From Bacteroidota bacterium (GTDB lineage: Bacteria; Bacteroidota; Ignavibacteria; UBA10030; UBA6906): a DNA stretch of 64,000 bases. The stretch spans positions 1 through 64,000 of the forward strand of contig JAUQWO010000064.1 of NCBI GenBank assembly GCA_030835135.1, written 5' to 3'. This document shows positions 15,497 through 33,262 of the stretch, in pieces (position 1 is the stretch's first letter; each line of letters opens with the position of its first letter). Below the pieces are notes generated by a model. That model made no database searches. It was not told the DNA's origin and was given only the letters and a program-made list of their open reading frames with translations. A program made the position numbers and the translations under genes.

Positions 15497-15560
15497 GGGA
15501 ATCTTGGCTCCGCATGTGCGGCAACGCCAGTGTGATAGCGCCGGCCCAGGCCTACATGCA
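15497..15560. other. Junction where two head-to-head genes are both truncated
   Basis: On the minus strand this stretch still encodes CRTCGAKIPL of prepilin peptidase. On the plus strand the same bases form the first ~15 codons of the giant Rhs frame (MCGNASVIAPAQAY...), which have no signal peptide and match nothing, while authentic-looking Rhs sequence starts around QNVYEAKHLDTLSVRQ. Both genes lose their 5' ends here. That points to a deletion, inversion or recombination end point, or an assembly join, within a few tens of bases. Confidence 0.6.
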
Positions 15561-18500
15561 GAATGTATACGAAGCGAAACACCTCGACACGCTCAGTGTC
15601 AGACAAAACGGACAGATCGTCAAGAGAATCGTGCTGCGCTCTTTCACATCGCAGGACGTCCTCTCTATCGGCGCCAAGAAGCGCTACCTTGCGAGCGTCC
15701 ACGTCTATGACCGGAACAGCGTTCGGATGTTGATCTCAAAGTATGACTATTGCGGGATTGGCGCGGAGGCCGCAGGTCTCAACCCCGGAGCAGTGCGTAG
15801 GATCACCTACCGATCGGGCGGATACACTGAATACACATACAAATCTCAGCCACTGACGCGTGATACGCTGAGCGCAGTGAGGACCATCCCCTCAACCATC
15901 CCGGGAAATCCGGGCACCACAGCGCCGAGTCCCACGGGAGTGGCTGGAACGGACTTCTACATTGTATCGCAGTCTCTGTACCGCTTCTACCGTTTTGACG
16001 GCGCCAAGGATACTCTTCGGCCGATGGAAGTCTACCGGCGGGGCGTTACCGGATGGTACCGGGATACGTCCTTCCCTTACGATTCGACGACATTCTGTCA
16101 GGTTGGAAGTGATGTCGTAGTAGGGTTTTTCAAAGACCGGTGGAAGGTCGTGCGGCGCTCTGGTGAAGGGTGGTCGATATATGATATCGACTCCGCATTT
16201 GTCGCAGACAGTGTTAGCTACAATACCAACGCTGTCAAACGCCGTGGGCCTGTGGGTTTCGGATCCACGTATTTCGTTTTCAAATACAACTGGACCCTTG
16301 ACTCCCCAGGGGACTTCAGCTACTCCATTGCTGCGGTGCACATTACTGAGAAGGGTCTGAAAGTACGGGCTCTGGGCTCAGGATTTCACGAAACAAACTT
16401 CTCGGCTATCGATAACACCGTCTATGTCGCGCCTCTGAGGGCCGATTGCGGGGAGAACTTTTTCGTTCTGACCAGTAGGGCGGCCGGGGAGATCTGCACG
16501 GCGCCGATGATGGCTTCATTCTACAAGTTCAGAAACGGTTCGTGGAGTCTATTCGATCAGCGTCAGATGGGAGACGCAAACCCCTTTCCCCCTTCCGATG
16601 GGCTGTTTTTTGCCACGAATGTCCCCACTCACCGAATTGGAAAGAACTTCGTTGTCAGCACAGCTCCTAAAGAGTATTACAGCGATAGCATTTATGTATT
16701 TCAGCACACTGCCGCATATCTCAAGAAAATTGACTCTCTCAGGTCTCCCTTCGGTGCAAGCACTCAGATTTCCGTCGGGGATTTCTACTACACCTATGCG
16801 GTCGGCGGAGCCCAGGGCTCATCACCAGTGTTGAGAACTTGGACCGGACAGGGATGGGAACAAACGTACCTCAGCGCGGCATTTCCGGGTGATAATACTT
16901 CGTTGGCCTCAACGACGATCTTTTCAAACGGCCGCAAGCTTGCATTTACGGGCAAGACCTCTACCGACACGACTGCTCACGTGTTTGCCATCACACACAA
17001 TGGCACCTCCTGGTCTTCACCGCGACACAACATCTTGAACGGGGTGTGGGATTTCTTCCGGGCATCGCCATTCGGTGAAAATGGATTTCTGCTTGAAGAC
17101 CATAGTGGACCGCTTTCCATGCTGTGCCATCTTCGGGCAATCTCGTTTGATGGGGACAGCCTGCGCTCAGCACCAGTGATTCCGCTCCTTAAAACGAACA
17201 GCGACATGACCAGCTCGTGGTATTGGCAACCAGGAAGGAACTTCGTCGCATCCTTCAGAATGTGGAACAAGGCCATCGGGACGGTAGACACCAATCAGGT
17301 TCTGACCCAGTGCATGGATAGTCTTGGTAGGCCCTCGTTTGCGCAAACCGGCTACGACATCGTCATCGATCGAAAGACAACCGTCTCCGGTATGGGTGAC
17401 AGTATCGTGACCACATTTGCTTTCGAGAACGGCATCTTTGATGACCAGGTAAGCGGAGGCAAATACAACAAGGTCACCGTGACGCATCCAGGTGCAACTG
17501 GCAAGACGGTGAGCTATTTCTACAATGACCTAGGCTCTGCTTGGTCGGAAGAGTTCTACGCTGGGAGGAATGTTCCTGTCCTGGATGGCACATCCTACAG
17601 AGTGAGGGAGTACAACAACTCCAATTCGCTTGTCCGCGAGACGGTGCAGTTCACCTCTGCCGACCCGGTCGACTCCGTGCGCGGTGTGTATTTCACGGCG
17701 CTCCTTCGCGACTCCGTCGTCACCGATAGCATTCCGCGCTTCACGACCTATGAATACGGCAATACGGCTCACCGTCAGGTCACACGCATCAACGAGACCA
17801 ACAGCGATGGCACCCAGCGCGTCACCCGGATGAAGTATCCTCTGGACTATTCAACAACAAGCGGATCGTCAACAAGCGCCACGGTCCGAATGTTGGACTC
17901 TATGAAGAATGTCACCCATATGGTGAACCCAGTCATCGAGCGATGGGTATTCTCCAAGACAGCCACCGATTCCTCATCTGTGCTCTCGGCCGCTCTGACG
18001 ACCTACCGCCGTATCGGGGCAAACCAGGTACTTCCCCTCCAGTCCTTCCGACTCCGAGACAGCGCAGTCGTGAACTTCGCGGCCTCGTATACCCAGAATG
18101 ATTCCTTCAAGTGTGACGCGCGCTATGTGCCCGATGCGACGTATGATCTGTACACCGCACTGGGCAACCCCGTGCAGGTGCGTAATGGAAACGGCATCGC
18201 TTCGTCCACGATCTGGGGATACTCGAGTGCACTGCCAGTGGCTTCAACAGTGAATGCCCGCACATCGCAGACAAGCGTGGGAGGCGAATGCAGCTACGTC
18301 GGCTTCGAAAGCGGGACAACGACCCCCGCGCTCGCCTCTGATGAAGACTACTGGTCTCTCTACGGGACGAATGGTTACAATGTGCCAAGTACCGATGCAC
18401 ATACGGGGCTGTACAGCCAGAAGCTTCCGGGCTATTCCTCAAGCCCGGCCACCTCACCTGCGCCGCGCTTTGGGCCCACACGCGATTTCTGCCCCCCAGA

Positions 18501-21500
18501 TCTTGCCGGACAGCAGCGCGTCTACATCATCTCAGCGTGGGTGAAGACCGAGTCCGGCACGGCGGCGAGTTCGGCTCGGCTCACCGTCTACACCAAAGCG
18601 AACACGGATGCCAATAATAACTTGTATCCGAACATCGCCATGGCATATGCGAGCGCCACGGCAGGCGACACCTATGGCAGCTGGGTGTACCTTGAAGTCA
18701 AATGCGACCTGAAATCGATCCGCCAACTCGGCGGAATATCGGACAACGAGCTCATCCGCATGAGGGTCTATGCGGAGAACTACGATGCTTCACATTACAT
18801 GCTTGTGGACGACATTCGCATCCACCCAGCGGATGCGCCCATCACTCAGACGATAGCATACGACCCCATCCTGCTTATTCCCACATATGAGAGCGACGCC
18901 GCAAATCTCTTCACCCGCAAGACATATGATGGTTTTGGCCGCCCAATTCAGATGTGTAATGGTTCGGGATCCCTTCTCGTCGAGCAGGCCTACTACTTCT
19001 CCCGAGATGGCGCGGCGGACTCGGCGTTCCACGCAAACGATCCGAACTATGTGAAGGTCAAGACCTACCGCTCGGCCAGTGACTCGTCTCTTTCAAAGAG
19101 CTACTCCGACGGCATCGCAAGAGAGGTTCAAAAACAGATCTATCTGGGGGACGAGGATATCATTTTCCATACGAAATACGACTCCCTCAGCCGGCCTCGA
19201 TACGTCTACAAGCCTTATCAGTCGAGCCTGGGTGCCGGAAAGCACCTGTACGACGCGAGCGTTGCCTCACACCTCACCAGCTATTATGATGGTCTGGGAA
19301 TCTCGCTGGGCTCGGTGCCCTATGCCGAATCACGATATGTTGCTGATCCCTTAAGCCGGATCGAGCTCGAGGGGTCCCCGGGAACCACCTTCGCCATTGG
19401 CGGGGGGCATGACATCCGCGTGGACTACTCGGGTGACGGAACGAACAAGTGGAATGTTGCACGTCGGCGCAATGAGCAGGGGGACACCACAAGAGTCTCG
19501 ACCGACCTCTTCGGTAATGCAGTGAGGTCCGAGGTCCTGATGGGAAGCAGTCCTTCTCTGGTCACCTCTTCAACCTTCGACGTCATCGGGAACCTCACCA
19601 AATCCACCCCCCCGCTGGGCGACACCTACAGCACAGCATACAAGTACTCGACCAGAAGCGAACTCAGACAGAAGACGTCACCCGATGCCGGTACTGTGAG
19701 GATGCTCTACGACAAGAAGGGGAATCTCCGGCTCATCAGAGACGCCGCGCACACGGGGACTGGAGCCAACGCGGTCAATATCTCCGCAAGCGTTTCACCC
19801 GGAGGCCAGGTATCAAGCAATATCACGCTCAATAACCGAGGGAAGTTGAACGTCACGCTCAACGCTTCCGGATACCCCGTGATGGGGGGCAATGTGACAC
19901 TCCAGGTGAAGACGACAGGCGGCGTGGTCTTGCTGTCGCTCGTCACGACGGGAGCGCCCCAGTCGGGATCACTCATTCTCCCACAGGGCACCTACAGCTA
20001 CACCGTGCGTTCTACCGCGCAGGATCCTCCCCCTACGCCGTATACCATACAATGCCAAACCCAGTATCCGTTCGCGTACAACAAATATGACGGTCTCGGC
20101 CGCATCATCGAATCGGGTGAATACGTTGCCTCCGACGCGTCGGCGTTCACTCAGGTCAACGCAGACTCGGCGATCTTCCCTCCCCCCTCAAGTGTGGTCC
20201 TTTCGACCTCGGCCGGATACGACACGGCCAGCACAGATGCGATGGCCTCCGGTCAGCGCAATCTCAAGGGAAAGATCTCGTGGATTTCGGCCTACCGGCT
20301 CGGGACACTCGCGCTCACGACGTTCTATTCGTACGATGACATGGGGCGCACCGAGTGGGTCGTGCTGAAAGGCCTCGGCTCATCATCCAAGAAGATCGCC
20401 TACGCCTATGACCTCGCGGGGAATATCACCACAAAGACCTATACTGATGCGTTCAACACGCAGAACAACTACATGTGGTGGTATGAGTATGATCAGGCAG
20501 GCCGCCCGGTGCGCGCCTACAGTGGAGCGGACAATGGCACACGGATAAGTGAAGCCGCCACCCGCTACGTGGCCACAGGTAGAGATAGCCAACTTACCCT
20601 AGGCGTGGGCCCGGCTCAGACATTGAGTTACACGTACAACCAGCGTGACTGGACCAGGTCCATCAACTCAACTCAGTTCTGGGAATCACTCGGGTATGAA
20701 ACGGTGCAGGAAGTTGGCTCGACCTTGAACGTCGCGCCGCAATACTCCGGTAACATTAGCTGGATGGCCTATAGCCAAACCCCGGATACTTTCGCCGTGT
20801 CGACAATCAAAACGACAACCATTGGATACGGATTTGGCTACGACAAGGCCAACCGGCTTACCTCGGCCAATTTTGGCTACAAATACAGTGGCTCCTGGAC
20901 AAGCCATGACCGCTACAAGATGCCTCAAATCGGGTATGACAAGAACGGCAATATCACAAGCCTTGTTCGCTACGGCACGCCCGATGGGACGAGCACCTCG
21001 CGGATGGACAGTCTCAGTTACAAGTATCTTGCAAATACCAACCGACTGGATTACATTTGGGACACGGTGGCTGCGGCCATTTTCCCAACGGACATTGACA
21101 ATCAATCCACCGGGGCGTATGCTTACGACGGGAATGGGAATGTGAAGGCTGATGCGAGCCGAGGCGTGGCTCTGGTCGTCTATGACATGAACAATCTGCC
21201 GGTCTCCGAATACTTGACCAACGGCACACTCATCCAGTATGCCTACGACGCTAGTGGCATGCGGGTGCAGAAGATCGTCGGGGCAGGATCCCCCGTCTGG
21301 TATGTGGGGGGAGCCGACGGAAAGACCGATGTGGTCTATAATGGATCCACGAGCAATCCGTGCTACAACTTATTCGGAGCCGGAGGCGGGCTCATCGGCC
21401 AGGTGAAGCGGAGCGGCACATCGCTCAGCCGCCAGTACCACCTGAAGGACCACTTGGGAACGGTCCGGGTGACACTTTCCCCTTCGATGGTTGTGGAGAA

Positions 21501-22845
21501 CTTCGGCGGCGACCTCTCGCAGTGGACCACGGTCCTGGGCTCAGGCTTTGCCATTGAAAGCGGGTGGCTCTCGGCCTCTTCAGCAGGCGGTGACAACGTG
21601 ATGGTGAACAGCTCCGCGACTACGATCGCTGATGGGGTGGTCGCCTGCGATGTGAGTACCCCGCTCCCCTTGCCGAGCGTGGCCGATGTATCGATCGTTG
21701 TGCGCTATGTAGATACGAACAACTTCTACCTGGTGTACCCGTGCGGCAACCGGCTCAAGATCTTCAAGAAGCTCTCCGGGACTTACGCGCTGAAGGTGGA
21801 TGTGGCCTTACCGGATGGCTACATGGCGCAAAGTACCTGGTATCGTCTGCAGACAACGCTTTCAGGGTCGAATATCAAAGTCAACTGGAACGGTCAGCAG
21901 CTTATCAACTGGACCGACCCGTCGAGTCCGTTCTTAAGCGGGAAGGTTGGATTCCGGCAGGACAACTCCATGCATGCGCACTGGGACAACTTCGTGGCCT
22001 GGAGCACCGGCACGCCGACGATCCTCGCCTATGATGATTTCTACCCATTTGGGCAGTACATGGACTATAGGAGCTCTAACAACGGGTTCGCCGATGCGCG
22101 GTACAAGTACACGGAGAAAGAGCGAGACAGTGAGACGGGGTATGATTACTTCGGGGCACGTTACTATGATGCGAGGATTGGAAGATGGCTGAGCGTTGAT
22201 CCTCTATCTGCGTCCTATTCCGATCAATCTCCATTTGTCTATGCACTCAACTCTCCCTTAAGCAAGGTTGACCCAACCGGGGAATGGGTTGCTTCCTATG
22301 ATGCGAGCAATAACCTTGTGAATGTTCAAGCCGAAAAGAACGACAACCTCGAGGGACTATATCAACAACTGGGGGTTTCACCCGAGGACTTCGCCAACAA
22401 ATACGGCATTGATGACTTGTCAAAATTTGAAGTTGTCGAAGGTCAGACGGCATTTGATGTTACTGACTTCGTGTTTGCGAAAGGCTCGAGCACGCAGTTT
22501 TCAACGGATGCAGGAAACATGAATTGCTTTTCTTCAACATTGGTTGCAACAGGAATGGTTGATCAGGAGACCCAGGTTCAGGGGGGGTTCCATTTTACTC
22601 AAGAAGTTCAAGATTTGTTCCACTTCTCCCCTCAGTCCTCTCCCAACACCGGGGCGGCTGTCACATGGGTCGACAAGAGCGGGATTACCAATCACTCTGC
22701 CGTGTATGTAGTGAAGGATCAATCAGGTAAGGAGTACTTTGTCGGGAGGGCGGGGCCGAATTCACCCGTGTCACTGCAGACGAGCGATCGAACAAATCAG
22801 ACCTATCCGAACTTCCAAATCAATTACCTAGGGAGGCCAAAGTGA
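15514..22845 (+). CDS. Giant Rhs/YD-repeat protein with LysM-like and papain-like C-terminal tip (5'-truncated)
   Basis: The 2443-codon frame holds an SpvB-like/beta-propeller N-terminal half, then YD repeats from about residue 1100 (for example YSYDDMGRTEWV, YAYDGNGNVKAD). DHLGTVR lies near 1978, a LamG-like insert at about 1985-2165, and the Rhs core GARYYDARIGRWLSVDP near 2212, ending at VDPTGEW near 2252. The tip has a LysM-like segment (about 2266-2318: NLEGLYQQLGVSPEDFANKYGI). A cysteine-peptidase-like domain follows, with MNCFSS near 2335 and NHSAVYVV near 2393, a likely Cys-His pair of the NlpC/P60 or papain-like fold. There is no signal peptide, unlike the other Rhs proteins here, because the 5' end is lost at the 15.5 kb junction. 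The next gene overlaps by four bases. Confidence 0.88.
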   Translation: MCGNASVIAPAQAYMQNVYEAKHLDTLSVRQNGQIVKRIVLRSFTSQDVLSIGAKKRYLASVHVYDRNSVRMLISKYDYCGIGAEAAGLNPGAVRRITYRSGGYTEYTYKSQPLTRDTLSAVRTIPSTIPGNPGTTAPSPTGVAGTDFYIVSQSLYRFYRFDGAKDTLRPMEVYRRGVTGWYRDTSFPYDSTTFCQVGSDVVVGFFKDRWKVVRRSGEGWSIYDIDSAFVADSVSYNTNAVKRRGPVGFGSTYFVFKYNWTLDSPGDFSYSIAAVHITEKGLKVRALGSGFHETNFSAIDNTVYVAPLRADCGENFFVLTSRAAGEICTAPMMASFYKFRNGSWSLFDQRQMGDANPFPPSDGLFFATNVPTHRIGKNFVVSTAPKEYYSDSIYVFQHTAAYLKKIDSLRSPFGASTQISVGDFYYTYAVGGAQGSSPVLRTWTGQGWEQTYLSAAFPGDNTSLASTTIFSNGRKLAFTGKTSTDTTAHVFAITHNGTSWSSPRHNILNGVWDFFRASPFGENGFLLEDHSGPLSMLCHLRAISFDGDSLRSAPVIPLLKTNSDMTSSWYWQPGRNFVASFRMWNKAIGTVDTNQVLTQCMDSLGRPSFAQTGYDIVIDRKTTVSGMGDSIVTTFAFENGIFDDQVSGGKYNKVTVTHPGATGKTVSYFYNDLGSAWSEEFYAGRNVPVLDGTSYRVREYNNSNSLVRETVQFTSADPVDSVRGVYFTALLRDSVVTDSIPRFTTYEYGNTAHRQVTRINETNSDGTQRVTRMKYPLDYSTTSGSSTSATVRMLDSMKNVTHMVNPVIERWVFSKTATDSSSVLSAALTTYRRIGANQVLPLQSFRLRDSAVVNFAASYTQNDSFKCDARYVPDATYDLYTALGNPVQVRNGNGIASSTIWGYSSALPVASTVNARTSQTSVGGECSYVGFESGTTTPALASDEDYWSLYGTNGYNVPSTDAHTGLYSQKLPGYSSSPATSPAPRFGPTRDFCPPDLAGQQRVYIISAWVKTESGTAASSARLTVYTKANTDANNNLYPNIAMAYASATAGDTYGSWVYLEVKCDLKSIRQLGGISDNELIRMRVYAENYDASHYMLVDDIRIHPADAPITQTIAYDPILLIPTYESDAANLFTRKTYDGFGRPIQMCNGSGSLLVEQAYYFSRDGAADSAFHANDPNYVKVKTYRSASDSSLSKSYSDGIAREVQKQIYLGDEDIIFHTKYDSLSRPRYVYKPYQSSLGAGKHLYDASVASHLTSYYDGLGISLGSVPYAESRYVADPLSRIELEGSPGTTFAIGGGHDIRVDYSGDGTNKWNVARRRNEQGDTTRVSTDLFGNAVRSEVLMGSSPSLVTSSTFDVIGNLTKSTPPLGDTYSTAYKYSTRSELRQKTSPDAGTVRMLYDKKGNLRLIRDAAHTGTGANAVNISASVSPGGQVSSNITLNNRGKLNVTLNASGYPVMGGNVTLQVKTTGGVVLLSLVTTGAPQSGSLILPQGTYSYTVRSTAQDPPPTPYTIQCQTQYPFAYNKYDGLGRIIESGEYVASDASAFTQVNADSAIFPPPSSVVLSTSAGYDTASTDAMASGQRNLKGKISWISAYRLGTLALTTFYSYDDMGRTEWVVLKGLGSSSKKIAYAYDLAGNITTKTYTDAFNTQNNYMWWYEYDQAGRPVRAYSGADNGTRISEAATRYVATGRDSQLTLGVGPAQTLSYTYNQRDWTRSINSTQFWESLGYETVQEVGSTLNVAPQYSGNISWMAYSQTPDTFAVSTIKTTTIGYGFGYDKANRLTSANFGYKYSGSWTSHDRYKMPQIGYDKNGNITSLVRYGTPDGTSTSRMDSLSYKYLANTNRLDYIWDTVAAAIFPTDIDNQSTGAYAYDGNGNVKADASRGVALVVYDMNNLPVSEYLTNGTLIQYAYDASGMRVQKIVGAGSPVWYVGGADGKTDVVYNGSTSNPCYNLFGAGGGLIGQVKRSGTSLSRQYHLKDHLGTVRVTLSPSMVVENFGGDLSQWTTVLGSGFAIESGWLSASSAGGDNVMVNSSATTIADGVVACDVSTPLPLPSVADVSIVVRYVDTNNFYLVYPCGNRLKIFKKLSGTYALKVDVALPDGYMAQSTWYRLQTTLSGSNIKVNWNGQQLINWTDPSSPFLSGKVGFRQDNSMHAHWDNFVAWSTGTPTILAYDDFYPFGQYMDYRSSNNGFADARYKYTEKERDSETGYDYFGARYYDARIGRWLSVDPLSASYSDQSPFVYALNSPLSKVDPTGEWVASYDASNNLVNVQAEKNDNLEGLYQQLGVSPEDFANKYGIDDLSKFEVVEGQTAFDVTDFVFAKGSSTQFSTDAGNMNCFSSTLVATGMVDQETQVQGGFHFTQEVQDLFHFSPQSSPNTGAAVTWVDKSGITNHSAVYVVKDQSGKEYFVGRAGPNSPVSLQTSDRTNQTYPNFQINYLGRPK

Positions 22846-24098: not shown

Positions 24099-24389
24099 TC
24101 AGCTTACGCTATCGCCCTTCCTGCGATTGTTCTCCCATTGCAGCGGTTGCAGGTTGCTGAGGTTGTCACTCCCTCCTTTTGACTGAGGATAGATGTGGTC
24201 TATCTCCCAACCATACTTAGAGTCAGTATTGCCGTGTTGGCTGTATTGCATTGGTGAACCGTAAACGTCCGACCTCCAGACTGATGCGTCATAGCCTGGA
24301 ATGGCGCGCCCTTTCGCCCAAACAGCTAGTTTGGTCTGTTCAGGCACCCACTTAAAGGGGTATTTGTATGTTGAAGTTTGAGTGTACAT
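24099..24389 (-). CDS. HNH endonuclease-domain protein
   Basis: The 96-residue product ends in a clear HNH motif: GWEIDHIYPQSKGGSDNLSNL followed by QPLQWENNRRKGD. The DH pair and the two downstream Asn/His-position residues form the metal-dependent nuclease site. The first half (YPFKWVPEQTKLAVWAKGRAI) is the short leader seen in small free-standing HNH proteins of the restriction or toxin type. GAGG lies about nine bases before the ATG. It stands alone, back to back with a strong plus-strand promoter. It could be a detached toxin tip from an Rhs-like gene, a homing-type nuclease or a defence nuclease. Confidence 0.8.
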   Translation of the reverse strand: MYTQTSTYKYPFKWVPEQTKLAVWAKGRAIPGYDASVWRSDVYGSPMQYSQHGNTDSKYGWEIDHIYPQSKGGSDNLSNLQPLQWENNRRKGDSVS

Positions 24390-25082: not shown

Positions 25083-25256
25083 ATGGACAAGGACATCAAG
25101 CAGTCAACACTCGCCGAAGCCGAACGGCATCTGCTTGCGCGTGACCGAATGCACGTGGCCGTCCCATCGACCCTCCGGTGGAGGGTAGCAGCTTCGTCTG
25201 GATTCTCGGGTTGGGCGGCCCGTTGTGTGGTGTGTGGGCACGGGTTGATCCAATAA
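25083..25256 (+). CDS. Possible small protein of 57 residues
   Basis: The ATG at 25083 is preceded by GCGGAGG at good spacing. The product (MDKDIKQSTLAEAERHLLAR...) is helical and charged at first and ends with a CxxC (RCVVCGHGLIQ). A terminator-like hairpin follows within ten bases of the stop, so a promoter-gene-terminator unit is plausible. No family recognised. Confidence 0.35.
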   Translation: MDKDIKQSTLAEAERHLLARDRMHVAVPSTLRWRVAASSGFSGWAARCVVCGHGLIQ

Positions 25257-25262
25257 AACAAG

Positions 25263-25306
25263 AGGGCGTCGCCAATATTCTTTCGAGTATCAGAGCACGC
25301 CCTTTT
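25263..25306. terminator. Bidirectional terminator between the small plus-strand frame and the defence operon
   Basis: AGGGCGT (25263-25269) pairs with ACGCCCT (25297-25303), followed by T on the plus strand and by TTGTTTT on the minus strand. It lies 80 bases past the end of the six-gene minus-strand operon and would end that transcript. Confidence 0.55.
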
Positions 25307-25386: not shown

Positions 25387-26166
25387 TCAAGACACTCGTT
25401 CAACCTGATTTTCACAATGAAGATCATATGTCAACGGTTCGGAAATCTCGAGATCCCCCTTATCATTCCGAATTCGAGGCGGCTTCATTCCTAGGTCTGG
25501 CGATTCCCATTGGAATAGGCTCAAATAGTCACTATGAAGAGTCGCGTACCGCCAGAGCACCAAATCCACGACAGCGATTCTATCCCCCGTGCTTGACGCA
25601 ATCACATGACAAAGTTCGCCCGGATCAGAATACCCCGTGGCGTTTGTGATCCTGACGAGATGTCGATCAGGTTTCGCTACGTCCATCCCAAGATTTTTCG
25701 CCAAGTGATATGAAGTCACTGGTCCAATGTATGGGAGTGTACGTAGGAATTCAAGTCCGCCACGCATGATGCTTCTGATAACATGTTCAAACCCTTCGCT
25801 CTGCACAGCTTCGGCAATATCAGCGATGGCACCAATCTTGCCGGGATGGTTGAAGTGGACCAATGCTTCATTGACACAAGCTTGGCGCTGCCTTACTATG
25901 TTTGATGCACTGCTCCAATTGCGAAATGCAGTGCCAATCTCCCCCCAAAGCCCCCGAATGACGCTTGCCTTCATCCCGGCATTTAGGATTACCCACGCAC
26001 ACTCACTCAAGAAAGCAGACTCCGTTATCGTCGAAAGTGATAGGCTTTCCTGCCAGGCGATCTCTGGGCCATATCCTGCCTGAACCACATCCTTCTTTGC
26101 ATAAAGATAGGTCTCTGTCACCCTGAGGGCAGAGGCTCGACGGACTCTTGCAGGAACTTGGACCAT
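25387..26166 (-). CDS. HhH DNA-glycosylase/OGG-like protein
   Basis: The 259-residue helical protein has a helix-hairpin-helix glycosylase signature near residues 143-175: LRTLPYIGPVTSYHLAKNLG then MDVAKPDRHLVRIT. The Asp of PDRHL sits where HhH glycosylases place the catalytic aspartate. Family members flip out and excise modified bases. OGG-like proteins accompany QueC-like proteins in type IV CBASS, and here too the gene follows a QueC-like gene (73-base gap). I start at the ATG at 26166, which has AAGGAAGG upstream, rather than at the TTG at 26229. It is the last gene of the operon that begins with KwaA. Substrate unknown. Confidence 0.8.
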   Translation of the reverse strand: MVQVPARVRRASALRVTETYLYAKKDVVQAGYGPEIAWQESLSLSTITESAFLSECAWVILNAGMKASVIRGLWGEIGTAFRNWSSASNIVRQRQACVNEALVHFNHPGKIGAIADIAEAVQSEGFEHVIRSIMRGGLEFLRTLPYIGPVTSYHLAKNLGMDVAKPDRHLVRITNATGYSDPGELCHVIASSTGDRIAVVDLVLWRYATLHSDYLSLFQWESPDLGMKPPRIRNDKGDLEISEPLTYDLHCENQVERVS

Positions 26167-26239
26167 CGCAGACCTTCCTTGATTTGATTGGTGGGGGAGA
26201 AATGTATTGTTTTCGAAGTCTCGAAGCAACTTAAATCTG

Positions 26240-26854
26240 TTAAGGAGAACCCCAAACCTCGATCATTACCTCGCCCCGCTTTCGACATCCTCGACACATC
26301 CCACACGCGACATTAAAGCAATGACACGAATGCGTCCAGCGAGCGATGGCTTCGGGCATTTTGCTCTCACGCAAGAGCTCGGCGGAGCACTTCTTGATTG
26401 CGGGCGCATAGAGCCGGAGTCCCCCCTCTTGGCGAGTAAAGAGTTCATCCATCAGCGAATAGAACCCCACTGTGCCATCTGCGAATCTGGCATCTGAAGA
26501 AACTGTTCCTGTGAAGAGGTCACCTTGCACCCCCATCGCAAGGCACCGAGCTGCGACCACAGTTATGAGAAATTGATTTCTTAATGGCCACCAATCAGAC
26601 GAGGGCAAATAATTAGAATTCTCTGATCCAGCCTCCCGCCGATTGGTCGACATGTCACCTAAGCCTGCAAAAGAGAAATCCGCTCGAAGCACCTCATGTG
26701 AAGTCCCCAGTTCGTGACAAATCGCCTTCGAGGCCTCGACTTCTGCTTCGCCCGCTGCTTGACCATATAGGACTGTAAACGCCAGGTCTGGTCTTATCGC
26801 ATACGCGAGTGCTGAGGAGTCGAGCCCTCCAGATAGAAGCAGTATCTTTCTCAT
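26240..26854 (-). CDS. QueC-like PP-loop protein
   Basis: The 204-residue product opens with the PP-loop KILLLSGGLDSSALAYA and ends with the zinc-site pattern HSCHCFNVACGMCRGCRKR, both hallmarks of 7-cyano-7-deazaguanine synthase (QueC). Housekeeping QueC makes preQ0 for queuosine, but no queD, queE or queF is nearby. QueC-like proteins are known parts of the QatABCD and type IV CBASS defence systems. The ATG at 26854 overlaps the stop of the PfkB-NDT gene (ATGA), showing tight coupling. I infer a defence-dedicated activity that acts on a nucleobase or a protein partner. Confidence 0.85.
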   Translation of the reverse strand: MRKILLLSGGLDSSALAYAIRPDLAFTVLYGQAAGEAEVEASKAICHELGTSHEVLRADFSFAGLGDMSTNRREAGSENSNYLPSSDWWPLRNQFLITVVAARCLAMGVQGDLFTGTVSSDARFADGTVGFYSLMDELFTRQEGGLRLYAPAIKKCSAELLRESKMPEAIARWTHSCHCFNVACGMCRGCRKRGEVMIEVWGSP

Positions 26855-28122
26855 TCCAGCTTGCCCATCCAAGCCGCTTGATAGATCGCGGTTGGAAAAT
26901 CACGGAATACATGGCAGTTGCTGCCTTCGATCATAGTGATGTGTCTGGGGTCCAAGTCGCTGACGAACACAACCGCAGGTTTCTTCAAGGCACGCGCAAA
27001 ACCGAGTTCAAAGATCGTACCCGGATCAAAGCCATCCACCAAGGCAAAAACCAGATCGCTTTCGACTAAACCTTTGATGTCTGCATCGGCGATCTTGGTC
27101 ATGTCCTTGGCATGTGTCAATTCTCCCACATGATCCCTCGGGGAGAATACGACGAGTCCTTGTTCTTCGAGAGCGGCCCTCGCTTCGTTCAACAGCCACA
27201 ATTGAGGAAGATTAAAGAACGGTCCTGCCAAATATACTTGCGCCCGATGCTTCTTCGGGGCTTTGGGGGGCACAAGCACTTTCGTCATTTTGGGAGCAGA
27301 GAGATGGGGGGATGCAGGAACCGGCAGAGCCCGGGTGGCACAATAGAGCGCAGTGGCCGCCGCAGCCTTACGAGCTGAATCAAGTGGAGTGGCCCCAGCT
27401 ACTGTCCAATATGCAGCGAAGATCGATGAGAAGACATCACCAGATCCAATTGGGAACACGGTTGGAATAGGAACGCTCGGGATGTGGTCGAGATTCCCAT
27501 CACTGCACACGACTGCACCCTCAGTGGCATTCTTCACGACAACCACTTCGCACCCGGCCAGTCTGAGCAGTGATTTCGCCAACACCTCAGAGTTCAACTC
27601 CTGTGGTGCGGAGTGAGGCTCGACGGCCTGCAACATGGCCCGAGCTTCTTTGAGATTAGCGACGATGGCAAGCCGCTTGGCTGAAATCTCCTCTTTGGAT
27701 GGCAATCGTGCGAGTTCACCCGATTGCGGATCGAAGACAATTTGATTTGCCTCAACGCTAGGCGATGCTTCGACCATTCCGAAGACGAGAGCGCACTCTG
27801 TTTCAACCCGGTCTAGGTTTATTCGAGCGCGTCCGGGTCTACTCTGGTACAACTTTGGAGCGGACAATCCGTGGATGTACTGAAACTCAACCATCCCATC
27901 GCGTGGTGTAATCTCGACATCGTATCCGAACGAGGCAGCAGTGTCCCTGACCTGACTTTCGAGCTCACCTTCAGCGCAGGTACGAAGTAGTACCCGACTC
28001 TTGGAGATCATCTCGACGATCCTTGATGCTGCGGCAGCGGCGCGCCCCCCTGAACCGTACACCTCACGCCATGCGGGATTCAGACAAACCTCAAAGTACG
28101 TGCCTCCGATTACAGTGAACAT
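26851..28122 (-). CDS. PfkB-family kinase fused to a nucleoside 2-deoxyribosyltransferase
   Basis: The 423-residue product has two halves. Residues 1 to about 280 are PfkB-like, starting MFTVIGGTYFEV with the catalytic-base motif PIGSGDVFSSIFAAYW. Residues about 300-423 are of the deoxyribosyltransferase type: VYLAGPFFNLPQLW, then DPGTIFELGFARALKKPAV, whose Glu is the expected nucleophile. PfkB enzymes phosphorylate sugars or nucleosides, and NDT enzymes move or hydrolyse deoxyribosyl groups. Joining them in front of a QueC-like gene suggests handling of a modified nucleoside or nucleotide. ATG 28122 has AGGGGGA upstream and lies eight bases after the previous stop. The longer frame to 28212 reads through that upstream gene and is unlikely. 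Confidence 0.85.
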   Translation of the reverse strand: MFTVIGGTYFEVCLNPAWREVYGSGGRAAAAASRIVEMISKSRVLLRTCAEGELESQVRDTAASFGYDVEITPRDGMVEFQYIHGLSAPKLYQSRPGRARINLDRVETECALVFGMVEASPSVEANQIVFDPQSGELARLPSKEEISAKRLAIVANLKEARAMLQAVEPHSAPQELNSEVLAKSLLRLAGCEVVVVKNATEGAVVCSDGNLDHIPSVPIPTVFPIGSGDVFSSIFAAYWTVAGATPLDSARKAAAATALYCATRALPVPASPHLSAPKMTKVLVPPKAPKKHRAQVYLAGPFFNLPQLWLLNEARAALEEQGLVVFSPRDHVGELTHAKDMTKIADADIKGLVESDLVFALVDGFDPGTIFELGFARALKKPAVVFVSDLDPRHITMIEGSNCHVFRDFPTAIYQAAWMGKLE

Positions 28123-28130
28123 ATTTCCCC

Positions 28131-28514
28131 CTATGCATGTACGCGAAGTTCCACGGCTCCACTCTGGATATTGACGACGTCCGCAACATAGACGTATCCC
28201 TTTCCGATGCAACCGAGAATGAGGCTAACGTTGGACACAATGCTCCCGGCTATATCCCCTCCGTTTGTCATAACCTGTAGTGGCGGACCACCATTTGTTG
28301 GAACCAATGTGAGGCGATCACCTTCGCTCAGTTTTTCAACGACACCTCTCTTCGGTGACTGAAGAAATGTCACGAAATCCAATGAAGCACAAGCATTTGT
28401 CTCACCTCCACCTCCCGCCCCACCCCCGCTATCCTCACCACGGATTCCGTTGTCGTCTCGTTCAGGGCGGGACGGACGCCCAAAATCCGGAATACCTCCA
28501 CCTGATCCACTCAT
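28131..28514 (-). CDS. Small protein with Gly-rich disordered N-terminus and compact C-terminal domain
   Basis: The 127-residue product begins MSGSGGGIPDFG and stays Gly/Pro/charge-rich to about residue 42. A folded domain of about 85 residues follows (LDFVTFLQSPKRGVVEKLSE, then GDRLTLV ... GGDIAGSIV ... LILGCIGKGYVYVADVV). The beta-rich pattern suggests a small OB- or HIRAN-like barrel, but I cannot name the family. AAGGAGG lies five bases before the ATG. It sits between KwaB (72-base gap) and the PfkB-NDT gene (8-base gap), within the operon. The flexible glycine-rich tip makes it a candidate partner or substrate of the QueC-like protein. Confidence 0.7.
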   Translation of the reverse strand: MSGSGGGIPDFGRPSRPERDDNGIRGEDSGGGAGGGGETNACASLDFVTFLQSPKRGVVEKLSEGDRLTLVPTNGGPPLQVMTNGGDIAGSIVSNVSLILGCIGKGYVYVADVVNIQSGAVELRVHA

Positions 28515-28586
28515 CGGTCCTCCTTCGGCAATGGTTACCTGCGAATTGATTTCTCACCACTGTTGGGCCTGCTTCTGCAGGTCCAG

Positions 28587-29477
28587 TCACTTGGTTATGA
28601 CAATCTTAGAATTCGTGAGGAACATCCTTTCAGATATTGGCGAATCGAGTATATCCTCAGCGAGAAATTGTATTGCCCGCTTTGCTTTCTTCCGATCTGC
28701 TGGAATCTGCAGTGCGGGCCTACCATTCTTCGTCGTGATCCCCAATGGAATGCCCCGTCGCTTAGCGGAATTGAAGACCGCTTTTACCGAATCCTTGCTT
28801 AGGACACCAGATTGGAGAATTGAGTGAACCTTCTTCCTCAACCATGAATCCGGGAGCCCGAAAAAACCATCCTCATCGTCTATGAAGATATACGGTCCCT
28901 TTTGGAACTTCTTCATTTCAATGTCGCTCGCTTCTAAAAGGTATTCTGAGATGTCAAGGAATCTTGAAACCGACCTCAGAGATTCGAAGAACAGTTTCCC
29001 GTCTTGATATAGAGCAGTGATGTTCTTTTGAAACACCAGCACTGGGGATTCAAGAGGTGTCAGAGTATCTTCTGAAAACAATAGCCCCCCTTCAGCCCTA
29101 ATCACGACGCTCTCAGACATCCTCTGAAATGCGATGAGTTGTCCGGCACGGTTCTGACCACAAGCAATCAATGCCAGCAGACGACCTCCACGCTCTATCA
29201 TCTCCTTGGTCAAGATCTCCGGTGGAAGGTCAGGCTTGCAGAGGCTCGCATAAATGTCAGGCAACTTCAGCCCTTCGATCACGAGCAGGCTGTCATCATC
29301 GGCTTTGTAGTCTCCGTTGTACGAGATGAGCTCCTTCTCGGCAAGGAAGGCATTCGAATACCCAGAGAAATCTCTGGTCATATCAGTCTGAGTCTGTCTT
29401 TCGATCGGAAGGGACCTCACTATTGTTTCGTCCGCGTATTCAAGGGCCACGAAGAATTGCCACACGATCGGAGGCAT
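28587..29477 (-). CDS. kwaB: KwaB-like protein (DUF4868), Kiwa defence
   Basis: The 296-residue soluble protein has the layout of DUF4868/KwaB. A beta-rich N-terminal half contains a segment around LVFQKNITALYQDGKLFFES and FLDISEYLLEASDIEM. A helical part follows, and the family ending reads ILDSPISERMFLTNSKIVI, matching the D-x-L-x-S-x-(L/I)-T/S...SK pattern. KwaB works with membrane KwaA in Kiwa to detect phage attack and block phage DNA functions. ATG 29477 lies one base after the KwaA stop (TAACATG); an in-frame TTG at 29486 is less likely. The pairing with a four-helix KwaA-like gene makes the call firm by context; the residue-level match is from memory. Confidence 0.78.
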   Translation of the reverse strand: MPPIVWQFFVALEYADETIVRSLPIERQTQTDMTRDFSGYSNAFLAEKELISYNGDYKADDDSLLVIEGLKLPDIYASLCKPDLPPEILTKEMIERGGRLLALIACGQNRAGQLIAFQRMSESVVIRAEGGLLFSEDTLTPLESPVLVFQKNITALYQDGKLFFESLRSVSRFLDISEYLLEASDIEMKKFQKGPYIFIDDEDGFFGLPDSWLRKKVHSILQSGVLSKDSVKAVFNSAKRRGIPLGITTKNGRPALQIPADRKKAKRAIQFLAEDILDSPISERMFLTNSKIVITK

Positions 29478-29478
29478 G

Positions 29479-29991
29479 TTAGTCAATCTCCATTAATAGG
29501 TAGTCTGAGATCTCAACAACGAATCGATTCTGTGGATTGCCCCTGAGTCTCTTCTTGGTCAGAAGAATTAGGGTTACGTTGTCATTTGTCGTGACCTCAT
29601 AGAAGTGATAGCGGAAGAGTCCCAGCAGCGGATTGAAGTGATACGAATTACTTGCAAATACCGCCACAAAGATTAGAACGAAGACGAAGGACACAACAGG
29701 GAGGTTTGTTTGCTGATCCGATGTCCCAGCAAGAGGAAGCAGGTACGTCAAAATGAAGGCGAGTATCTCTTGATCCGCATTTCGGACGGAAGATAGCTTT
29801 AGCTCGATCACACGCAGCTTGGACCTAATGAATCTGAGTAAACACAGATTCAGAAGCACGAGAAGACCAGCAAGAGCAAAGAGAACATACTGCCATCCTC
29901 CTTGCTCAGAGAGCCTTGATAATCCGTAGGTAATCAGGACGGGGGCCAACGATGTGGACACCAACGCAATCTTCGCGAAAAAGCTCAGCAT
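29479..29991 (-). CDS. kwaA: KwaA-like four-helix membrane protein, Kiwa defence
   Basis: The 170-residue product has four hydrophobic segments: two near residues 5-50, one around AFILTYLLPLAG (about 80-90) and one at VSFVFVLIFVAVFASN (about 100-115). NPLLGLFRYHFYEV follows, then a C-terminal beta stretch. The LTYLLPL and NPLL..FRYHFYEV patterns fit KwaA. I choose the ATG at 29991, which has GGGGAG seven bases upstream, over the ATG at 30015. It is the first gene of the minus-strand operon, with KwaB immediately downstream. KwaA is the membrane sensor of Kiwa. Confidence 0.75.
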   Translation of the reverse strand: MLSFFAKIALVSTSLAPVLITYGLSRLSEQGGWQYVLFALAGLLVLLNLCLLRFIRSKLRVIELKLSSVRNADQEILAFILTYLLPLAGTSDQQTNLPVVSFVFVLIFVAVFASNSYHFNPLLGLFRYHFYEVTTNDNVTLILLTKKRLRGNPQNRFVVEISDYLLMEID

Positions 29992-30257
29992 AGTCGACTC
30001 CCCATTAGAATCCATAGAGGTAAGTGCCAGGGTCGGTCATGGGACCCGCAACAACCGCAATCGTTGATTTCGTTTATGGATCCGTCCGATGGTGTCTTCG
30101 AAAAACCCAATTTCCCTTTTTAAGGCAGATTTCGAGAATTAGTTGAAGGCTATCTATCATTCTAAGAAGAGTCCGTCCTCCTATGGCACCCCCTTCAGAA
30201 CTATTGAACAACTCACACACCCAGTTTCAGTAGTTCATCAGGAGTGGAACTCAACGG

Positions 30258-30977
30258 TCATATCTTATAGCTGCTGGTATCCTGCTTCTTGATGACCCCG
30301 TCCACTCGAAATGTGAAGATGTAGTCGTTCACAACGTCTTCAATCTGGAGTGGCAGGAGCACCTGATACGTCTTTCCGACATAGCCTTGCATCGTCCGGC
30401 TGAAATCTTCGTAAGATGCATATGTCCCTTTCGTGTATTTGCTTTGGTACTCATAGTCTGGAAGGAGCGATTCTTCAAGCCATCTCCCGGCCGTGTATCT
30501 GGTTCCTTCTACCCAGCGGACAAAGTCGGTCGGAAAGACGATATCCTCAATTGATCCCCTGCGGACGATAATCGATGGTGCCTGAGGTTTTTCTCGATCA
30601 TTATATTTCACCCCTGAATGCATAACGCGATGCGTGGCTCCATCGTGATCTACAAAGGCCGCTTCATCCCATGGCACCTTGATCGAATGATCGGTCTTGT
30701 TGACAGCTGAGAAAGAAATATTTCGACTGTCTGCTATCCAGAGAATACGGAGCAGATCATCCTCAAAGAAGAACTTGTATTTCGGGTTCGTCGAAACCGT
30801 ATCCACCTTTTGTGTCCCGTAACGCTGAGAAGCCTTCTCTGGCCGTTCGACTTTTGACAATGACATTGAATACTGAGCTGTGAATGTTGAGGTCTTGACG
30901 ATTTCACTGGGAGAAAAACAGCCGGACAGTATAAGACCTAAGGCTATTATAGAAAGTATGATTCTACGAGCGTGCAT
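30258..30977 (-). CDS. Lipoprotein of unknown function
   Basis: The 239-residue product has a lipoprotein signal, lipobox ILSGC at residues 16-20, and AAGGGGGC before the ATG. The mature part has alternating beta segments (ISFSAVNKTDHSIKVPWDEA, RHVMHSG-like) and looks like a single globular periplasmic domain. It is 267 bases upstream of KwaA on the same strand, so it is probably a separate unit. No family recognised. Confidence 0.7.
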   Translation of the reverse strand: MHARRIILSIIALGLILSGCFSPSEIVKTSTFTAQYSMSLSKVERPEKASQRYGTQKVDTVSTNPKYKFFFEDDLLRILWIADSRNISFSAVNKTDHSIKVPWDEAAFVDHDGATHRVMHSGVKYNDREKPQAPSIIVRRGSIEDIVFPTDFVRWVEGTRYTAGRWLEESLLPDYEYQSKYTKGTYASYEDFSRTMQGYVGKTYQVLLPLQIEDVVNDYIFTFRVDGVIKKQDTSSYKI

Positions 30978-31157
30978 GTTCAGTTGCCCCCTTGTCCGTG
31001 GTTTGCTTTGATGGATTAATGAACTCAGTGTAGATTCGAGTGAGAAGGACCATTTTCAATCCATGATGAAACGAAGGCACTTCTGTCCGGAGAAAATGAG
31101 TCCTTTCTTTTGCCTCGTCACTCGAATCGTCGGAATCCCTTGGTTCTGAAATACAGT

Positions 31158-32102
31158 CTATCGTTGCCCCGGTTCACCCGCACCATTGATGACCGCCCGA
31201 GCGATCAGATAAGTGGTGATCTCTGTCGCTGCTGGATTCTTCAACGAAGTACAGAGGTTACAGATAGTTCTTGTCAGGTATCCAATCGCGAGACGCCCGA
31301 GTGTGTCAATCAGTTCTCCAAATCTAGGAGCCATGGAAATCCCGCCAACGGTTCTTACTATTCCGCCGGCGCGTGACGATCCATGCGAGACCGTAGAGAG
31401 GGTGGAGTATAGCGATTGGTAGTCATCTGCATGTCCGACATGCACTGCAACGTCAAATATGGTGACGCACGCATTGGGGTCTTTCTCGTTTACCACTTGC
31501 CACGACCAATGAGATTTGAGATTTGTTGAATAGTTGACGCGGACCTGATCATAGGCAGCTTGTATTCCCTCCTCCGATGATGTTGGGAACCTCTTCCTGA
31601 ATGACTCCTCTGAGAGTCTCCCATTCCGACGCGCCTTCCGACACCACTCAAGGTCTTTGTACTGCTCTACATGGCGGTATTCAAGGAAGAGTAGGTCCCG
31701 CTTTTCCGCATTGCTCTGTAGAATGATTGACTGGTTCAAGTAGTTCTCAAACAAAGACCGAAGCAAAATTGAGGCTTCCCCTGGGAGACCTTCTTGAAGA
31801 CAAGCCCGCACCCCCGAAAAACACTGACAACTCCTAGCGAAGAGGACCCGCAGGCCCACCATTGGATTGTCTTCTGAGAAAAGGCCCGACTCGGCAAGAT
31901 AAGATGTAAAGAGGTGAAGCGTCTCCATTTCTTCCCAGAGACTGAGGTGGGGGGCACGCAACCTCTCCAACGTCTCGGCTAATCCACTAAGGCTGTTCGC
32001 CCGATAACTGGCGATGATGCCATCGTACTTGGCAAGCAGGCTCACCAGGATCGGCTTCAAAGAGCCCGGGAGATTTGGTAAGTCAGCCGAGTGCACGTTC
32101 AT
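31158..32102 (-). CDS. DUF5677-like helical protein
   Basis: The 314-residue, mostly helical protein has the core ILLRSLFENYLNQSIILQSN followed by EKRDLLFLEYRHVEQYKDLE, and later LYSTLSTVSHGSSRAGG. The R-x-x-x-E...S-x-x-x-H layout is that of the DUF5677 family, common in defence and mobile islands and sometimes compared with HEPN/Abi proteins. Biochemical function unknown. I start at the ATG at 32102; a TTG at 32114 is also possible. A methyltransferase fragment lies 28 bases upstream. Confidence 0.65.
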   Translation of the reverse strand: MNVHSADLPNLPGSLKPILVSLLAKYDGIIASYRANSLSGLAETLERLRAPHLSLWEEMETLHLFTSYLAESGLFSEDNPMVGLRVLFARSCQCFSGVRACLQEGLPGEASILLRSLFENYLNQSIILQSNAEKRDLLFLEYRHVEQYKDLEWCRKARRNGRLSEESFRKRFPTSSEEGIQAAYDQVRVNYSTNLKSHWSWQVVNEKDPNACVTIFDVAVHVGHADDYQSLYSTLSTVSHGSSRAGGIVRTVGGISMAPRFGELIDTLGRLAIGYLTRTICNLCTSLKNPAATEITTYLIARAVINGAGEPGQR

Positions 32103-32129
32103 CACTGTTGTCAATCATCCGTGGAGGAC

Positions 32130-32333
32130 TCATCGCTCGTTCTCGCGTCTTCGTTGCGTTGGATCGAAGGAGACCCTGTAGTCCCGCTTCGAATTAAACG
32201 GAGGGTCGATATAGATCAGATCAATAAAGCCAACCGGATGCTCCTTGTGGAGTTCCTTGAGGACTTCGAGACGGTCACCGACGCGGAGCTGTTTCACTAG
32301 GTCTTGCCTCCGAGGCGCAGCCAAAGAAACCAT
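32130..32333 (-). pseudogene. N-terminal fragment of a DNA methyltransferase
   Basis: The 67-codon frame reads LRVGDRLEVLKELHKE...GFIDLIYIDPPFNSKRDY, which is motif IV (DPPF) of the Mod/N6-adenine or N4-cytosine methylases, and then ends after about 18 more codons. A complete enzyme needs several hundred residues, and the DUF5677 gene follows at once. This is a remnant of a lost restriction-modification gene. It overlaps the preceding membrane-protein gene by 37 bases. Confidence 0.7.
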
Positions 32334-33262
32334 CGAGGAAACTCAAACCCAGGAAGTAGGTTTGACGGAATCGGCGTGCGAGGCCACGAAACCCATAGAG
32401 CCAATGTTGAAGAAAACGCCATGATCCAGCCGATCGCCTTCAACCCAGTTGGAGTTTCGGCTTTCGGCAAGTGATCTAGCATTCGTTCAGCCAATGAATC
32501 GGCTTGTGTCGATCGGAAACCTTCGGATCGCAGTTCGGAAATAACCTTTGGCCGAATACCGTCAATCGCTACGATCGTAGGTGGACGCTCAGGGAGTGTC
32601 GTGGCTTGATATAGGGACAGCAGGAGCGCAATTGCAAATGAAATGGAAACAAGTCTGGGGCCTTGGAAGATCTGCTCCCAGAATGTACTGAATAGATCTC
32701 GTGCGAAGGGCCTGAAGAACACCTTCTCATTTACCTTAACGACTTTGTGCGGCCCAAGAATGACTCCTCCAAGAACAAGACTGGCGTCGGCAGTTCCAGT
32801 GTGCTGGATCTCTATAATGGCGCCGTCCCTTCTATCTAAATAGTCAAAGTCTAGTACTACACCAGGTGCATCAGCGTGCCCCTTGACTGTGAAATTGGTG
32901 CTCGGTCGGACAACCTTCAGAATGTCGAAATCCAAAATCTCGACATCCGCCTTGGGATCATGAAGTGTGAATGTCAGTCGATCATTTTTGGGGATGTCAT
33001 CCCGTCTCAGTGGACGACGGCCATTGTTCCAAATGCAGATGAGCGTTCTAGTGACACGTGGAACTTCGTTCTTTTCGAACGTCACTTTGATTTTCCGGTG
33101 GGCGCTCGAAATTCTACTGACCTCACGTATATGTTTGTAAACGAATCGCAGGTCGACGCGTGACTTGCTCCTGAAGTAGATGGTGATCGAAGCCAAGATT
33201 CCCAAAAGTCCTATCAGATAGCCCAATGGGTCCCGCAATGCGGTTTCTAGAATTTGTTCCAT
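32297..33262 (-). CDS. Membrane protein of unknown function
   Basis: The 321-residue product has a membrane segment at about 11-30 (PLGYLIGLLGILASITIYF), a soluble beta-rich domain (about 35-200), a second span at about 205-225 (LVSISFAIALLLSLYQ) and a third near 278-298 (IGWIMAFSSTLALWVSW). The soluble domain should face the cytoplasm if the first span is N-out. I do not recognise the family. It belongs to a run of minus-strand orphan genes in the accessory island. Confidence 0.6.
   Translation of the reverse strand: MEQILETALRDPLGYLIGLLGILASITIYFRSKSRVDLRFVYKHIREVSRISSAHRKIKVTFEKNEVPRVTRTLICIWNNGRRPLRRDDIPKNDRLTFTLHDPKADVEILDFDILKVVRPSTNFTVKGHADAPGVVLDFDYLDRRDGAIIEIQHTGTADASLVLGGVILGPHKVVKVNEKVFFRPFARDLFSTFWEQIFQGPRLVSISFAIALLLSLYQATTLPERPPTIVAIDGIRPKVISELRSEGFRSTQADSLAERMLDHLPKAETPTGLKAIGWIMAFSSTLALWVSWPRTPIPSNLLPGFEFPRWFLWLRLGGKT

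Follow-up and report, generated by a model that had tools for sequence, protein, structure and literature searches.

A widespread four-gene cassette beside a Kiwa pair, apparently undescribed as a system, is a candidate nucleobase-conjugation immune module

We analyzed a run of six genes on the minus strand (positions 25387-30015) of a 64,000-nucleotide stretch of a Bacteroidota bacterium genome (contig JAUQWO010000064.1), hereafter the window. A Kiwa defense pair, kwaA and kwaB, is followed there by genes for a Gly-rich small protein, a fusion of a PfkB-type kinase with a nucleoside deoxyribosyltransferase (PfkB-NDT), a QueC-like ligase and an OGG-like HhH glycosylase. On balance, we favor the view that the four genes after kwaAB form a self-contained, horizontally spread immune module that uses nucleobase conjugation; an anti-phage function as such is likely. 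The cassette is widespread, apparently undescribed as a system, and would be a variant of QueC-type conjugation immunity. Our literature search found no paper describing it as a system, with most subscription papers and preprints outside that search, and the Gly-tail, PfkB-NDT, nitroreductase, HhH and PurA-like proteins are not covered by any PADLOC model. An earlier note on this DNA had reported six genes in one direction with short gaps, which the coordinates bear out, and its names for the parts agree with the PADLOC, PF05014, PfkB and PF06508 matches. Its view of a nucleobase- or protein-modifying cassette remains the best reading and is strengthened.

We followed the cassette through its fusion gene. 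Among 296 genomes of the window's phylum, a PfkB-NDT search returned four further full-length relatives, each between a Gly-rich homologue upstream and a QueC-like gene downstream and none with kwaAB. A PfkB-NDT profile then found 375 relatives in ~85,000 species genomes, and 80 loci were kept. The 85 loci compared here include the window; PfkB-NDT is present in them by construction, the partner genes are not. The Gly-rich homologue lies directly upstream of PfkB-NDT in all 85 loci, and the fusion gene is followed by QueC in 76 and by a PurA-like gene (an adenylosuccinate-synthetase homologue) in eight, all Bacteroidota. Every one of the 84 loci with downstream sequence thus has QueC or PurA-like; the remaining locus, L078, stops at the fusion gene. 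Since the fusion proteins fall into 47 clusters at 60% identity, the pattern does not come from one clone. The range takes in many bacterial phyla, haloarchaea, plasmids and Escherichia coli islands.

With families assigned by Pfam and NCBIfam, several architectures were observed. In 27 loci, Gly, PfkB-NDT, QueC and a SagB-like nitroreductase are followed by an HhH glycosylase and a DNA adenine methylase (Dam) in convergent orientation; another 15 loci read HhH, Gly, PfkB-NDT, QueC, nitroreductase. The form with Gly, PfkB-NDT, QueC and OGG was found in the window, L035, L038, L043 and L055, and a Bacteroidota form (an 80-residue protein, Gly, PfkB-NDT, PurA-like) in seven loci plus the incomplete L078 and L096. 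Genes for dGTPase-like proteins occur in 9/85 loci. Further OGG-type cassettes were sought in the phyla of the window and L038, and this search returned the L043 genome again and two true type IV loci of the cyclic oligonucleotide-based antiphage signaling system (CBASS). In L126, L127 and L135-L137, the DNA adenine methylase gene overlaps the glycosylase gene, and the Enterobacteriaceae copies have dGTPase as a seventh gene. A multi-span 8xMP-like membrane protein, a possible effector, is encoded at L035:9209-9727 on the same strand as the OGG gene, which it overlaps.

The earlier note had read the operon as a Kiwa variant joined to the cassette; on such a view all six genes would work together as one system. 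The Kiwa part of that claim holds: kwaA (membrane protein of Kiwa; 29479..30015, − strand) and kwaB (KwaB/DUF4868; 28587..29477, − strand) are clear family members (PADLOC E 7.7e-49 and 1.5e-49) and form an ordinary adjacent pair, upstream neighbors of the cassette that we judge not to be part of it. We looked for Kiwa in the 85 cassette loci, using profiles derived from several known pairs, and found a pair in two, the window and L043, in line with the cassette only in the window; the other 83 had none in the stretch examined. The L043 pair (Balneola; L146 is the same genome) is a different one, 5 kb from the cassette, on the opposite strand and within a type I restriction operon. No cassette gene occurred in the 4-19 kb of sequence retrieved for five Kiwa loci that belong to other genomes of the window's phylum. 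A joint system would fit the single direction and short gaps in the window, as well as a second OGG-type locus with a Kiwa pair within 6 kb. Its rarity, the placement of the L043 pair, the Kiwa loci elsewhere that lack the cassette and the standing of Kiwa as a known two-component system make it very unlikely. The cassette occurs mostly without kwaAB, so the linkage that the note had drawn is not conserved and does not stand. Some attraction to Kiwa is possible, because both Kiwa-bearing cassettes belong to the rare OGG subtype (two of its five loci), but clustering of defense genes is the simpler account of their proximity. The cassette is an autonomous unit, separate from Kiwa. The neighboring kwaAB would act as an independent membrane-sensing system that has a locus, and possibly a transcript, in common with it.

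The Gly-rich small protein (127 aa; 28131..28514, − strand) matched no family. It starts MSGSGGG, its residues 1-37 form a disordered tail and its residues 38-127 a HIRAN-like domain. AlphaFold2 gave a predicted local distance difference test score (pLDDT) >90 for most of residues 41-127 and ~53 for the tail, and the best PDB folds in Foldseek were 3k2y and the DNA-bound HIRAN domain of HLTF, 4s0n (probability 1.00, E 0.007-0.018). A sequence search of the PDB returned weak CBS-domain matches only; HIRAN came from the fold comparison. M1 and G3 are invariant in an alignment of 43 members, and 73 of 87 Gly-rich proteins begin M-[S/G/T/A]-G; in haloarchaea, the protein begins MGGGGSS or MGGGSGG and has two copies of the domain. 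The protein thus has the small exposed N-terminal residue and Gly-rich disordered tail seen in the partners of N-terminal deazaguanylation (NDG). Type IV CBASS CD-NTases start MGGS, QatB starts MGTS, and in both systems a change of G2 to Asp abolished defense. We propose that the Gly-rich protein is the substrate of N-terminal nucleobase conjugation, a step that we consider fairly probable from the sequence features of protein and ligase.

The candidate ligase for this step is the QueC-like protein (204 aa; 26240..26854, − strand; PF06508 E 1.1e-17). It keeps the SGGxDS, YGQ..E, RN and HxDG-type site and the zinc motif CHx5CxxCxGCxK, together with the equivalent of the base-reading Asp (D117) of Cap9, the ATP loop and the zinc cysteines. 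A PDB search with the single sequence gave no match; with a profile, the best match was Cap9 (9nto, E 1.6e-14), followed by QueC (2pg3, E 1.6e-13). By homology and conserved motifs, the QueC-like protein would adenylate 7-carboxy-7-deazaguanine and, in the way that Cap9 modifies the CD-NTase of type IV CBASS, attach the base to the Gly-tailed HIRAN-like protein at its N-terminal amine. Since the host genome has canonical QueC and QueD, the precursor is probably available. QueD is present in 26 of 27 genomes, PurA-type ones included, and does not discriminate for precursor need.

By its YGQ..E and CHx5CxxCxGCxK motifs and its PfkB-NDT neighbor, the window QueC fits Cluster 4 of PF06508, whose motif definition and assignment to purine salvage come from Libby 2026 (PMC13329287), where the assignment was made solely because of the PfkB-NDT neighbor. 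The paper leaves unmentioned the Gly-tail protein, glycosylase, nitroreductase, Dam, dGTPase, the PurA variant and defense. Salvage would have the QueC-like and PfkB-NDT enzymes recycle purines or 7-deazapurines, with the small protein as a regulator; kinase and NDT are indeed salvage-type enzymes. We nevertheless regard it as unlikely, given a patchy, island- and plasmid-borne distribution, an invariant Gly-tailed protein, glycosylase, Dam, TIR, TGT and dGTPase partners, and the exchange of QueC for a PurA-like enzyme that lacks the aspartate loop.

This exchange was observed in L050, L057, L064, L074, L076, L083, L096 and L104. The PurA-like protein (PF00709, E 8.9e-45) retains two catalytic motifs, GDEGKG and GGHxAGH. 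In all seven complete members, however, NE.QG.F stands in place of GATTGRPRR, the aspartate-binding stretch of the PurA that the window genome itself encodes. If the enzyme activates a 6-oxopurine but has lost aspartate binding, it may couple another amine. As judged from these motifs, the natural candidate would be the N terminus of the adjacent Gly-tail protein. PurA-type loci with upstream sequence, and also the truncated L078, carry an 80-residue protein upstream of the Gly gene with the motif LTDEQVLKEFVRRFECDGAVLIYxxS..FGFGRW.

The PfkB-NDT fusion (26851..28122, − strand; NDT PF05014 E 2.3e-19, PfkB E 4.1e-7) keeps the kinase motif GSGD and the NDT motifs YLAGPFF and DxGTxFExG. Its AlphaFold2 model has a pLDDT of 92, Foldseek matched it to ribokinases (E 8e-13), and the best PDB profile match of the PfkB part is 3kd6, annotated as a nucleoside kinase. 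PfkB-NDT sits where type IV CBASS has TGT. Mainly because a base-exchange enzyme accompanies a nucleobase ligase in both systems, we propose that the tag becomes a nucleoside or nucleotide: the NDT domain may swap the base onto deoxyribose and the ribokinase-type kinase may phosphorylate the sugar, which would give a protein-tethered nucleotide. By this analogy the conversion is tentative. In loci that have a dGTPase, this enzyme may provide the donor, deoxyguanosine. The enzyme also invites another explanation, in which dGTPase, NDT and kinase destroy deoxynucleotides during infection. This would accord with dGTPase in nine loci and in the E. coli, Citrobacter and Moraxella modules, and with the dGTPase model that PADLOC contains; yet most loci and the window lack dGTPase, and the Gly tail, QueC/PurA and glycosylase would go unexplained. 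Such nucleotide depletion is improbable.

The OGG-like HhH glycosylase (25387..26166, − strand; PADLOC OGG E 5.5e-80) belongs to the OGG family of type IV CBASS, which is common to two CBASS loci of the window's phylum (L147 and L148) and the cassette loci L035, L038, L043 and L055. It keeps a catalytic-type Asp in KPDRHL, and the Lys of GPK is replaced by Val. Speculatively, the enzyme might remove or edit a base in DNA, as an effector or a host safeguard, and the HIRAN-like domain might carry the conjugate to the ends or replication forks of invader DNA. We hold delivery to DNA by this domain to be doubtful. QueC, glycosylase and adenine methylase together could also speak for DNA base modification, with 7-deazaguanine or another base as a self mark and the glycosylase attacking unmarked DNA. 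That account has little probability, as most loci have no DNA transglycosylase of the TGT/DpdA kind, over half of the loci, the window among them, lack Dam, and the Gly-tail protein has no place in it.

The pairing of QueC and OGG had already been taken to point to type IV CBASS (Cap9 QueC, Cap10 TGT, OGG, CD-NTase; PMC11996544), and the Cap9 profile match and common OGG family support this. L147 and L148 are true type IV CBASS, with QueC, a gene at the TGT position, a SMODS CD-NTase, a membrane protein and OGG; the L147 locus has matches to the TGT and 2TM-effector models, and its CD-NTase begins with MGGGGGGGGYIRS, a Gly-rich N terminus like that of the cassette partner. The resemblance extends to the Cap9 active-site features of the ligase. 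Unlike these loci, however, the window operon has no CD-NTase (SMODS) match, no match to a stand-alone TGT (Cap10), whose position PfkB-NDT takes, and no cyclic-nucleotide effector, the HIRAN-like partner and PfkB-NDT standing instead. Because it has neither CD-NTase nor TGT, the cassette is not type IV CBASS. It is not Qat either: qatABCD (PMC13279940) likewise combines a QueC-family enzyme with a partner that has a disordered tail and an N-terminal Gly motif, but QatC has ~400 aa and Thr-Thr in the base site, against 204 aa in the window QueC, and the window operon lacks QatA/QatD-type genes and a helical QatB. Nucleobase-protein conjugation has been shown in type IV CBASS only and suggested for Qat; by analogy, the conjugation step of the cassette most likely works as in both.

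Several points weigh against conjugation immunity as we propose it. The likeness to HLTF HIRAN is a match of fold only (Foldseek TMq 0.50, E 0.018) with no Pfam match. Residue 2 is mostly Ser, whereas Gly is the residue modified in CBASS, and the Gly proteins of L050, L064 and L096 start MKGG, from which Met removal is not expected. On the side of the ligase, Cap9 is ahead of canonical QueC by a small margin only, its 7-deazaguanine-stacking Tyr becomes Phe, His or Tyr and its YxDC becomes xxDG in the QueC-like proteins, and the published analysis files Cluster 4 QueC under purine salvage. One QueC-type genome (G557/L085) gave no QueD match. The order and role that we give to NDT, kinase and glycosylase are guesses.

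Related gene sets were also observed on mobile DNA and next to other defense genes. A Rhizobium plasmid (L154:6001-10363) carries in one run a PfkB-NDT relative whose NDT part is degenerate, a fusion of TIR and TGT (weak TGT match, E 1e-3), an HhH glycosylase, QueC and a Thoeris-type TIR protein that starts MGGGSSGSW and is likely the tagged protein there. About a dozen Rhizobium plasmid records carry this PfkB-NDT relative. Other copies on plasmids have TIR, restriction and toxin-antitoxin genes in their neighborhood. Among complete E. coli genomes, 18 of 5426 carry most of the cassette query; in the islands examined, integrases accompany the full set of seven genes, which in strain KMi029 (L135:12007-18075) comprises Gly-tail, PfkB-NDT, QueC, nitroreductase, glycosylase, Dam and dGTPase. 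These islands lie at the ssb-yjcB site or near tRNA-Sec, and one stands beside a Gabija-like pair. A cassette remnant in E. coli 20AR0354 (L138:7905-8800) is cut by an IS3 element and adjoins NACHT and HEPN genes. A phage or prophage origin was rejected, as viral contigs yielded no full-length PfkB-NDT relative and phages gave matches to the NDT domain only.

We also considered, as a possibility that we hold loosely, a general immunity class in which interchangeable ligases (QueC-type for 7-deazaguanine, PurA-type for 6-oxopurine) tag interchangeable proteins (HIRAN-like, TIR, CD-NTase) at the N terminus, and a base-exchange enzyme (NDT-kinase or TGT) makes a protein-tethered nucleotide against invading DNA. 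If true, conjugation chemistry would be a general immune strategy in hundreds of genomes, E. coli included, and not tied to cyclic-nucleotide signaling; a kinase-deoxyribosyltransferase acting on the tag would point to nucleotide-like conjugates. The PurA-based chemistry would then be a second one and a new protein modification, a peptide N terminus on purine C6, and a QueC cluster now filed under purine salvage would be reassigned.

Within the window operon, kwaA and kwaB are one base apart, 72 nt separate kwaB from the Gly-rich gene and 8 nt the latter from PfkB-NDT, whose end overlaps the QueC-like gene in ATGA; the OGG-like gene follows after 73 nt. The ORFs (open reading frames) are not chance, because homologues of every one of these genes occupy equivalent positions elsewhere. 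We found no promoter-like site in a scan of the minus strand between kwaB and the Gly-rich gene. The single terminator that had been placed at the operon end is less secure: a possible one lies after the OGG gene (25255..25303, − strand; stem GGGCGT/ACGCCC, long loop, T-rich tail), its fold is somewhat better than that of shuffles (z -2.2; 10/200 shuffles as good), and a scan for short-loop terminators found none after that gene. Upstream of kwaA (30258-33262) are a lipoprotein-like ORF, a DUF5677 protein (31158-32114) and a short fragment (32130-32333) that by eye resembles the start of a DNA methyltransferase, which suggests a decayed defense region. Beyond the other end of the operon, a 2443-aa RHS/YD-repeat-type protein is encoded on the + strand (15514-22845), and a small HNH nuclease-like ORF (24099-24389, − strand) lies between this gene and the operon.

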